Shown here: piece after piece, positions 6,481-8,529 of the stretch | Position numbering within the stretch: position 1 is the stretch's first letter | Layout: each line of letters begins with the position of its first letter | Assembly: GCF_005144475.1 (NCBI RefSeq) | Contig: NZ_SWJZ01000063.1 | Span: 1-64,000, forward strand | Origin: Rhodobacter capsulatus | GTDB taxonomy: Bacteria > Pseudomonadota > Alphaproteobacteria > Rhodobacterales > Rhodobacteraceae | Length of the DNA stretch: 64,000 bases | Reading direction: 5' to 3' | The notes under the pieces: generated by a model | Told to the model about the DNA's origin: nothing | Seen by the model: the letters and a program-made list of their open reading frames with translations, nothing else | Database searches by the model: none | Translations under genes and position numbers: made by a program

Positions 6481-6971
6481 AGGCAACACCTTGGCAGCCA
6501 ATGGCCGACCTGTTTCCGGCGCATTTTCGCTCATCTCAGCACATAAAATGTCTTTTGGCTCAGAATGTTAGCTTGCGCCAAGAAGTGCTTCCTTCATGGT
6601 GGCCTTGTGCAAGTTTTTGCGTGCTGAATGTCAGTTTTTGGGGCCAGTAAAGGCACTTGGTAACATTCGCCCGCGTCCTGCGTCACGTCTCCATGTCGCT
6701 GTTCTTTAAGCCTTTTCATGCCCTTGCAGGTTTTTACCCCGTCCGGAAGCTTTGTGTCAAAGGTAGTCCCCCCCTACACGAAGAAGGCGAGTTCCCCGGC
6801 GCAGTGCAAGGCGAGCAGACCTTCAAGGAACAGGCGCCGAAACAGCCGCGACAGCACCCGAACATGCAAGAAAAAGCCCGGCTTGCAGGCAATCCAGTGG
6901 GTGCCGTCAGGCGACAGGCCGCCGCCCGGAACGATCATGTGGATGTGGGGATGGTGGGTCAGCGCAGAGCC

Positions 6972-7003
6972 CGTCGTGTCGAAGACGCGCCCGCGGCACG
7001 ATG
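6972..7003 (-). repeat. 32-bp palindromic element, copy A (in transposase)
   Basis: On the minus strand: CATCGTGCCG, two variable bases, GGCGCGTCTT, CGACACGACG. The outer 10-base arms are imperfect inverted repeats (8 of 10). It adds nine residues (read as CRGRVFDTT) between VLHT and SALTHH of the transposase without breaking frame. Two further copies are at 7711-7742 and 8016-8047. Confidence 0.75.
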
Positions 7004-7325
7004 TGTGCAGCACCGCCGTCATGCCGAGCCGTGTGGCCCAAGGCGTTTGGGGTCGGCCGCGATGGTCATGACCGTTTCGGCCGAAGCGCGGAACAGCAGG
7101 TCATAGACCGCCTTCTTGTTCCAGAACGCGACCTGCGCGATCTCGGCCGACAGGGTGAAGACGACGTGGAAATATTCGACCGGCAGCAGATCCTCGGCGC
7201 GCGCGGCCATCCAGTCGCGCGCCGCCGGGCCCTGGCATTTGGGGCAATGCCGGTTCTTGCAGGAGTTATAGGCGATGTGCTGGTGGCCGCAGTTGGCGCA
7301 ACCGGCCACATGCCTGGCCCAAGCG

Positions 7326-7375
7326 CGTTTTCGCTACAAACGATCCCCCGGATCGTTTGCTTGACGCTCAAACTC
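7326..7375. repeat. hairpin insertion in transposase, 10-bp perfect arms
   Basis: CAAACGATCC (7337-7346), CCC loop, GGATCGTTTG (7350-7359) form a perfect 10-bp hairpin. The flanking conserved transposase text (IEACR on one side, ALG then a frameshifted GHVAGC-type segment on the other) shows that roughly 45-50 bp were added here. Limits are approximate because the unoccupied sequence is inferred from the family pattern. Confidence 0.6.
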
Positions 7376-7710
7376 CGGCAGGCCTCGATCGCCGACATTA
7401 CCTTCAGCTGGGTCAGGCTGACATGCCCCGCATTGGCCCGTCGCCACGCCGGGCCATGGGTGCGGAAGATGTCAGCCAGTTCCAGCGATGGGCGGGGCAT
7501 AGAGCCCCGGCATCAATCCGGGCCGTCGGATCGCAGCACCCTGTCCTGCACAAGCTTCATCTGTTCGAAGGGGCTGACGGTGCTCTGGATCGTCTTGGTG
7601 GCGACATGGGCATACCGCGCCGTGGTGCTGAGCTCGGGCCGTGAACCAACAGAACCTGGATCACCCGCACATCGGTATTGGCCTCGAGCAGATGCGTGGC
7701 GAAGCTGTGG

Positions 7711-7742
7711 CATCGTGCCGGAGGCGCGTCTTCGACACGACG
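7711..7742 (+). repeat. 32-bp palindromic element, copy B (in integrase, opposite orientation)
   Basis: Same consensus as copies A and C with GA at the variable positions, but inserted in the opposite orientation relative to the host gene. The integrase reads RRVEDAPPARC through it, with net +9 codons between KPATLHT and HSFATHLL, and no stop is created. Confidence 0.75.
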
Positions 7743-7779
7743 GGTGTGCAGGGTCGCGGGCTTCGTGATCCCCGCATTC

Positions 7780-7812
7780 GCCATGGTCCTCGGACCAATG
7801 GCGGACCATGGC
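7780..7812. repeat. palindromic insertion with 10-bp perfect arms in integrase
   Basis: GCCATGGTCC (7780-7789) and GGACCATGGC (7803-7812) are perfect inverted arms with a 13-nt spacer that itself contains a near-copy of an arm (GGACCAATGGC). It lies between FMAAKE and AGITKPATLHT of the integrase, shifts the frame by one and brings in a TGA at 7813-7815. Confidence 0.55.
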
Positions 7813-8015
7813 TCATTCCTTGGCCGCCATGAAAGCGCGGTTCAGCTGCCTGGACGACAGCGGCGAGATCTTCGGCTTGCCCGGAAACAGCCAGCCTTCG
7901 GGCCGGGACTCGCGCCAATATTGCCGCAGCACCTCCAGCAGGCTGGGCGACAACATGGCTTGCCGGTCCTTGCTCCCTTTGCCTTGTTCGACATGGATCA
8001 GCATGCGCTGGCTGT

Positions 8016-8047
8016 CGTCGTGTCGAAGACGCGCCGTCGGCACGATG
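8016..8047 (-). repeat. 32-bp palindromic element, copy C (in integrase)
   Basis: Variable bases AC (minus strand); otherwise identical to copies A and B. It adds nine residues (VPTARLRHD) between LKVRDI and DSQRM of the integrase, in frame. The reading frame used differs from those in copies A and B, so all three frames tested are open. Confidence 0.75.
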
Positions 8048-8529
8048 TCGCGGACCTTGAGGTTGCAGACCTCCGATGCCCGCAGCCCGGCTCCGTAGCT
8101 GATGCCAAGGGCTGCTCGATACTTCAATCCGGGCCCGGGCACCGAGGCCAACAGTTTTGCGACCTCTTCCACGCTCAGCACCACCGGCAACTTCCGCGGC
8201 TGGCGATGGAACTGCATGTATCGCTTCATCTCTTCGCGTCCGCAGGTGACGCCGAAAAAGAACCGCAACGAGATGATCCGGACGTTGAACGTGGTGGCCG
8301 AGACCCCGTCTTTCGTCATTTGAAGCTGGTAGGACCGCAGATCCTCCGGAGTGGCGGTGTCTGGCGATCGCCCCAGGAACGACGCGAAATGCTTCACGCA
8401 GCGGATGTGACCCTGTTGGGTCTTCTCGCATAACCCGCGGATCTTCATGTCCTCAATCATCCGCTGGCGCAGCGGAGTGGTCTTCTTCTCCTTCATCGAA
8501 ACCTCCTGTCTGACGGGTGGGAAGACCAC

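Follow-up and report, generated by a model that had tools for sequence, protein, structure and literature searches.

A 28-bp twin-hairpin repeat in IS91-type genes of Rhodobacter capsulatus, a candidate non-autonomous mini-element dispersed among alphaproteobacteria

The closest described relatives of the repeat analyzed here are short hairpin repeats and small non-autonomous elements. In the portions of Di Nocera et al. 2013 (PMC3733652) drawn on here, CGTC repetitive extragenic palindromes (REPs) are short repeats that form hairpins and occur mainly in alphaproteobacteria, with no dedicated transposase known and with some copies located inside genes; their units have 8–9 bp stems starting A-T and loops of 4–5, together with a tag that does not pair and a tail resembling CCA. 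Rickettsia palindromic elements (RPEs) are described in a section of PMC10969869 as small repeats that insert into protein genes without shifting the frame, while REPINs, from an excerpt of PMC3116915, are REP doublets with a spacer that are tied to a REP-associated tyrosine transposase (RAYT) gene and for which a transposition intermediate has been proposed. Miniature inverted-repeat transposable elements (MITEs) are given a size of 70–300 bp in the same portions of PMC3733652. We analyzed a window of 64,000 nt of Rhodobacter capsulatus (GCF_005144475.1, contig NZ_SWJZ01000063.1, positions 1–64,000, forward strand) that harbors three copies of a 32-bp motif, consisting of a 28-mer core with 2 nt on each side, in an IS91-type insertion sequence (IS) unit. 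Judged by its sequence, this element appears to work like a REP, REPIN or RPE, yet it fits no named family tried (the RPE by description). What is new is a variant of the REP/RPE kind, intragenic REPs and RPEs being already known; a full-text literature search, covering mainly open-access literature, returned no paper that we recognized as describing the element. The copies and their host genes are as follows.

6972–7003, minus strand: copy 1, in the tnpA remnant, adjoining the THHPHIH segment, which we take to be an HUH-like motif; IS91 reference site 1384; the 28-mer occupies 6974–7001, flanked by CA..CG
7711–7742, plus strand: copy 2, within the HTLRHSFATHLL segment of int, in the orientation opposite to the gene; IS91 reference site 724
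8016–8047, minus strand: copy 3, in int, with KVRDI on one side and DSQRM on the other; IS91 reference site 482, whose empty pentamer is CATCG
7531–8496, minus strand: tyrosine recombinase/integrase gene (int) of the IS91-type unit, Phage_integrase; disrupted
6780–7494, minus strand: IS91-type transposase (tnpA) remnant, Zn_Tnp_IS91 and Y2_Tnp; disrupted

An exact search in which two N positions were left free finds the 32-bp motif at these three places only, with a chance expectation in the window of 0.00 (mean of 100 dinucleotide shuffles), and no further copy is present in the window's genome at ≤3 mismatches (a 170-contig draft of 4,224,534 bases). Relative to unoccupied relatives, with an annotated empty IS91 unit from a Paracoccus plasmid (L079) as reference, each copy adds 27 bp; the sites correspond to positions 482, 724 and 1384 of that reference. 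The in-frame readings are VLHT-SCRGRVFDTT-GSALTHH, TLHT-RRVEDAPPARC-HSFATHLL and VRDI-VPTARLRHD-DSQRM. The int–tnpA alignment behind this comparison contains 34 sequences, with 14 left out that are mostly duplicates of one place, and 13 loci from the genome of the window were excluded from the IS91 search set. The original prediction, made from the letters of the window, is thus borne out as to the three copies and their places, the nine codons gained in frame by each, and the readings in two orientations and several frames, all free of stops. The relatives are without the additional residues at all three sites, and copies of the element are found in other genomes.

In most variants the 28-mer is an inverted pair of mini-hairpins, with a GNA-triloop hairpin in the 5′ half of each strand. 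In an alignment of 66 of the 74 distinct 28-mers (that of locus L035 and seven end-altered units from tandem arrays were omitted), pairs within each half give 36 double-change cells versus 5.4 in shuffles, with 0/500 shuffles as high, and a longer form of hairpin 2 gives 24 versus 7.7. A single long palindrome, in which positions i and 29-i would pair, was rejected, as it gives 3 such cells versus 4.3 in shuffles. Cells of the half-hairpins are paired in 96.8%, a value that falls to 18–56% when the partners are slid, and the top mutual-information pairs, 17-23, 7-11 and 3-15 (0.73, 0.57 and 0.51; the next is 0.16), are all half-hairpin pairs. The covarying stems comprise 6 bp in hairpin 1 and 2–6 bp in hairpin 2, each with a 3-nt loop; a G-N-A triloop is found in loop 1 of 56/66 variants, in loop 2 (on the opposite strand) of 64/66 and in both of 54/66. 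The two N positions of the first consensus lie within loop 1. GNA loops form unusually stable DNA minihairpins, according to a passage of PMC6479982 citing Yoshizawa et al. 1997. Because folding of the isolated consensus places the long hairpin at a somewhat lower energy than one half-hairpin, the argument for twin hairpins rests on covariation and not on energy. The earlier description of the element as palindromic is correct only superficially: the pairs of the 32-bp palindrome do not covary, and those of the two mini-hairpins do.

Outside the window, the GTDB contig set contains 30 exact-match stretches, mostly from Hyphomicrobiales and some from Rhodobacterales. Hyphomicrobiaceae is the family in which the element is commonest among those sampled, with matches in 15 of 60 genomes, including a single genome with 71 matches (≤3 mismatches, both strands counted). 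Two Rhodobacteraceae scans of overlapping samples found matches in 6/295 and 9/390 genomes, and a class-wide scan with a stricter pattern found them in 1/385, namely the window's own; the element is not common in Rhodobacteraceae. A reversed-pattern control gave 0 matches in the scans of the window's genome, the 295 genomes, the 71-match genome, the Hyphomicrobiaceae and the class, and matched 1/390 genomes in the larger Rhodobacteraceae scan. At ≤7/28 mismatches, 135 distinct contexts, a few of which may represent a single place on a truncated contig, are found in 213 loci, and none in shuffled loci; these loci (797 kb, partly overlapping) were mostly chosen for holding the element, so that the count is not a density estimate. 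Among plasmid records, the consensus matches three from Paracoccus and a variant matches three from Phaeobacter and one from Caballeronia, while phage records contain no match at E up to 1. An Rfam search with 10 loci (44,926 bases) returned nothing above the gathering score, the sole match being mir-629 at E 0.055, far under that score. The element is also seen in head-to-tail arrays with a 24-bp period in genome G297 (e.g. L033 7920–7995) and in arrays with a 29-bp period in genome G300 (L174, L175).

Net gain was determined for hits with ≤4 mismatches and unique full flanks, which number 101 contexts. An empty-like match is available for 47 of these, 11 of which lie in or beside tandem arrays, leaving 36; +27 is the commonest gain, ranked first in 22 of the 36 and found in 9 of the 10 Rhodobacterales contexts, the tenth being IS256. 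Coding sites with +27 in IS91 are 482, 724, 1384, 1655 and, for a variant (L025), 971, and others are found in IS66 and istB; site 724 holds two such events 2 nt apart (the window and L038). The non-coding REP loop CCCCCGC-CTTCG-CGGGGG is often seen empty, and its occupied form, CCCCCGC-C[A/T][28]CG-CGGGGG, is likewise +27. Coding selection need not explain +27, because non-coding hairpin loops show it too, and as the sole cause of the gain it is correspondingly weakened.

The target is a pentamer, mostly C-NNN-G, that is turned into CN[28]CG. Empty pentamers include CATCG, CTTCG, CCTGG or CATGG, CTATG or CTACG, and CGCAG, with TATCG, TTACG and CGCAA in some relatives deviating from C-NNN-G. 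Occupied contexts have C at −2 in 18/19 and G at +2 in 17/19 of the Rhodobacterales set, and in 91/115 and 83/115, respectively, elsewhere. The CATCG and CTTCG targets can be read as carrying a 2-bp CG duplication; sites 1384 and 1655 and the one in IS66 cannot, and 0–3 nt look replaced there. No clear target duplication is seen. The 5-bp target first proposed is retained in outline as the pentamer, and +27 is the commonest gain, some coding events giving +28, +25 or about +24. The proposal of a tiny mobile element tolerant of coding sequence is partly supported, by the dispersed family, by unoccupied sites in relatives and by copies that stay in frame within real genes, with the proviso that +27 need not be an adaptation to coding.

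Single positions appear to be hit repeatedly. In a tnpA tree read without support values, for which L027 is too short, the occupants of site 1655 (L016, L017 and L024) are found in separate places with empty neighbors. L017, L024 and L027 share an identical 28-mer in hosts that are 65–81% identical. A comparison limited to 60 bp from the site puts L017 at 92% identity with an empty copy and at 82, 79 and 70% with the other occupied ones. Because identical 28-mers sit in diverged hosts and the L017 flank resembles that of an empty copy, this comparison speaks for repeated insertion at one nucleotide over inheritance or local recombination; ancient occupancy followed by repeated precise loss would be an alternative for this site. 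The istB site holds two different variants (L134/L135 and L152).

When both Rhodobacteraceae scans are pooled, 16 copies are found in 12 genomes, and for 15 of them the location is a transposition gene or its edge. The 15 consist of 12 in IS91 int or tnpA (the window's three and those of G067, G094, G1033, G877, G965, which has three, G806 and G1038) and one each in IS66, IS256 and IS21 istB; the exception, L035 (G107), is probably a chance match. Two are edge cases, one with a tnpA match that starts just past the element (L246) and one in which the element lies at the junction of an int fragment and a tnpA fragment (L252). All 8 new copies of the larger scan fall within IS91 or IS21 sequence or at its edge, although they were examined after the pattern had been noticed and are not all independent, because L246 has the variant and the site of L037, and the istB copy in L249 is that of L134/L135 again. 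Five other Rhodobacterales genomes from the GTDB contig set have seven matches, located in IS91. A Phaeobacter plasmid locus (L136), by eye an istA fragment fused to repC, had its repC part confirmed, while the istA part was sought and not confirmed; it is excluded from the count of 15/16 and included in the 19-context Rhodobacterales set. In the Rhodobacteraceae scans the copies are not spread over ordinary genes. IS91 copies themselves are mostly empty: among 33 loci collected blind to the element (L079–L111), matches are found only in the window's own and in that of G067.

Outside Rhodobacterales the surroundings are different, and many copies sit at the tips of REP-like hairpins. Flank stems of at least 6 bp are found in 37 of 115 contexts (200 shuffles average 14 and never exceed 21), compared with 1 of 19 in the Rhodobacterales set, where 1.6 are expected; among the 105 outside contexts with adequate flanks, 31 have a stem and 11 have a stem plus a CGTC or TGTC tag just outside. 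In-frame copies are also found within open reading frames (ORFs) having MobA/MobL (L005) and SNF2 (L009) domains (Pfam), in a DNA polymerase I-like ORF (L119) and in a small protein (L010), the latter two ORFs named by eye. Among coding hosts, the claim of +27 covers IS91, IS66 and istB; no empty-site MobA homologue was found on plasmids, and the insertion point could not be aligned in SNF2 homologues. The L119 copy, near 1501, is apparently nested in another hairpin repeat inside its ORF, and DNA polymerase I is one of the genes listed with REPs in the portions of Di Nocera et al. 2013 (PMC3733652) used here.

Like the CGTC REPs, the element is a short hairpin repeat, mostly alphaproteobacterial, with some copies inside genes, and some CGTC-like REPs serve as its hosts, with the element in their loops (the 11 of 105 contexts with stem and tag). 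Unlike them, it has short twin stems, GNA triloops and no A-T start. In a test for the CGTC tag, the reverse strand starts CG-TC in most copies, with +1 C in 18/19 and +2 G in 17/19 of the Rhodobacterales set and in 89/115 and 83/115 elsewhere, but the TC is part of the 28-mer and can pair. The main text of PMC3733652 mentions neither Hyphomicrobium, Rhodobacter and Paracoccus nor IS91. The resemblance to RPEs noted originally is one of habit, namely in-frame insertion with +27 in IS91, IS66 and istB, likened by description and with no sequence relationship claimed; in contrast to RPEs, the element is 28 bp long, is readable in several frames and in the Rhodobacteraceae scans is found in genes of mobile elements. 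With REPINs it shares an inverted pair of hairpin units, both of which covary, and a non-autonomous nature, but it has no spacer, and 11/12 genomes are without Y1_Tnp. Like MITEs it is non-autonomous, small, built of inverted repeats and sometimes found in genes; unlike MITEs it measures 28–32 bp and shows no clear target duplication.

As far as comparison of sequences goes, the dispersal of the element, its empty sites, +27 as the commonest gain, the pentamer target, recurrence at single positions and the twin-hairpin constraint are established. We consider it an even proposition that the copies constitute a non-autonomous mini-element of ≈28 bp with twin hairpins and a pentamer target, which spreads by way of a folded strand and is carried between lineages by IS elements. 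The moving form would be a folded single strand, exposed in replication or transposition, and insertion would be accomplished by a trans-acting enzyme other than a RAYT/Y1 transposase. Coding copies would be tolerated because +27 preserves the reading frame and every frame of the consensus 32-mer is free of stops. IS elements that move horizontally may ferry copies between alphaproteobacterial lineages, and such carriage would explain why the Rhodobacteraceae copies sit in IS genes. RAYTs are unlikely movers: Y1_Tnp (PF01797) is found in 1 of 12 element-bearing genomes and is missing from 11, and mobilization by a RAYT was rejected on this ground. A special coding design was likewise rejected, as the 32-mer is open in six frames, but this property is shared by 24% of mononucleotide shuffles and by no more than 44/66 variants.

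A number of observations count against this mini-element. The 12 genomes searched for Y1_Tnp are mostly metagenome bins and perhaps incomplete. IS91 homologues, present in 9 of 19 element-bearing Hyphomicrobiales genomes, are without a copy at 20/20 loci, so that donor IS91 copies carrying the element were rejected in that order, which is unhelpful to the carrier idea, and the sequence leaves unexplained why transposition genes are favored. Movement is deduced from comparison, with no insertion or excision observed, and the inserting enzyme is a postulate. The gain varies: 14 of the 36 non-tandem contexts give 24, 25, 26, 28, 29, 13 or 32, several of these being comparisons with paralogous REPs, and outside Rhodobacterales only 13/26 contexts give +27, 7 of which represent one REP type of G297 that was possibly multiplied after few insertions. 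The IS256 copy is exactly +28 and breaks the frame, L024 (a variant) is +25, L017 is a tandem at +49 and L253 is, by eye, about +24. Covariation measured by counting pairs or types is weaker (31/500 and 164/500 shuffles as high; 6/500 and 160/500 for the longer hairpin 2), two of the five measures fall in the shuffle range, and the variants share ancestry, so that 36 cells are not 36 events. Finally, loop 1 is not GNA in two of the three window copies (GCG and GAC), only the middle copy being GNA.

A bolder and rather doubtful extension would make the element a homing-like hyperparasite of transposons, a single-stranded 28-nt twin GNA-minihairpin inserted by a non-RAYT enzyme at conserved positions in genes that encode the transposases and integrases of several IS families, with IS elements carrying it across alphaproteobacterial orders; the mover could conceivably be the transposase or the partner tyrosine recombinase of IS91 units.

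A serious, if improbable, alternative to the mini-element is that replication errors spread a REP/RPE-type repeat, through template switching between hairpins and with no dedicated enzyme, copies of which transposons would pick up in REP-rich hosts and carry on. It accommodates the concentration of copies in the sampled Hyphomicrobiaceae, often at hairpin tips (37/115 versus 14), the resemblance of the 24-bp and 29-bp tandem arrays to slippage, the 11/12 genomes without a Y1 transposase, and the variable gain outside Rhodobacterales (+27 in 13/26). It does not readily account for the same nucleotide of conserved transposase genes being hit repeatedly in diverged IS91 copies, for the dominance of +27 in Rhodobacterales contexts (9/10) or for the empty IS91 copies of the presumed donor genomes, and slippage leaves the pentamer target unexplained.

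Inheritance of occupied sites from an ancestral IS91, or their spread by recombination between IS91 copies, with few true insertions, is unlikely. Sites 482, 724, 1384 and 1655 do recur inside one IS family, L037 and L246 have one variant 28-mer at one site, L249 repeats the istB copy of L134/L135, and IS elements move horizontally. Against this stand the identity of the element where hosts are 65–81% identical, flanks that are closer to empty copies than to other occupied ones, the 2-nt offset of the two site-724 events, and the presence of the element in IS66, IS256 and IS21 as well. That the residues form a normally variable stretch of IS91 proteins, or that the repeat is due to chance, has next to nothing to recommend it and was rejected, for although the copies are stop-free in the frame of the gene, none is expected by chance, relatives are unoccupied at all three sites, and one DNA sequence is read in different frames and orientations, in unrelated genes and in non-coding hairpins.

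At 28 bp, the element would be placed among the smallest DNA elements that apparently insert in a defined way. As the multiple-of-three gain is also found in non-coding loops, in-frame insertion need not reflect coding selection, and two ideas that are easily mixed for coding palindromes, in-frame gain and coding selection, are thereby separated. The recurrent hits at the same nucleotide of transposase genes provide a ready test for the agent behind REP-like repeats without a RAYT; the agent moving CGTC REPs is a question left open in the portions of Di Nocera et al. (PMC3733652) cited above.

The IS91-type unit of the window is broken regardless of the 27-bp copies, since two inserts of other kinds break the frame and the tnpA match stops at residue 216 of the 399-residue reference; the copies in this unit are probably without function. 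The two inserts are as follows.

7317–7360, no strand assigned: palindromic insert belonging to a different family, with core AAACGATCCCCCGGATCGTTT and a net length of 44 bp, which is not divisible by three
7773–7809, no strand assigned: third palindromic insert, within what remains of int, with a net length of 37 bp, which is not divisible by three

Two short fragments of the same unit are found on contig C24 of the window's genome at 202–428 (L043 and L044; 90 and 98 bp, 90% and 86% identical), and these do not reach the three insertion sites. Palindromes like the AAACGATCCCCCGGATCGTTT insert are found in 11 of 41 genomes searched, the window's own among them, and some of them have matching changes in both arms (GATC, GGTC and GCTC). 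Other palindromic inserts of 39–46 bp, with ends like CCCTCTCGGC...GCCTGCCGGGCA, are found in L016, L024 and L103 (IS91 reference 762–1875), and only some of these copies have a length divisible by three.
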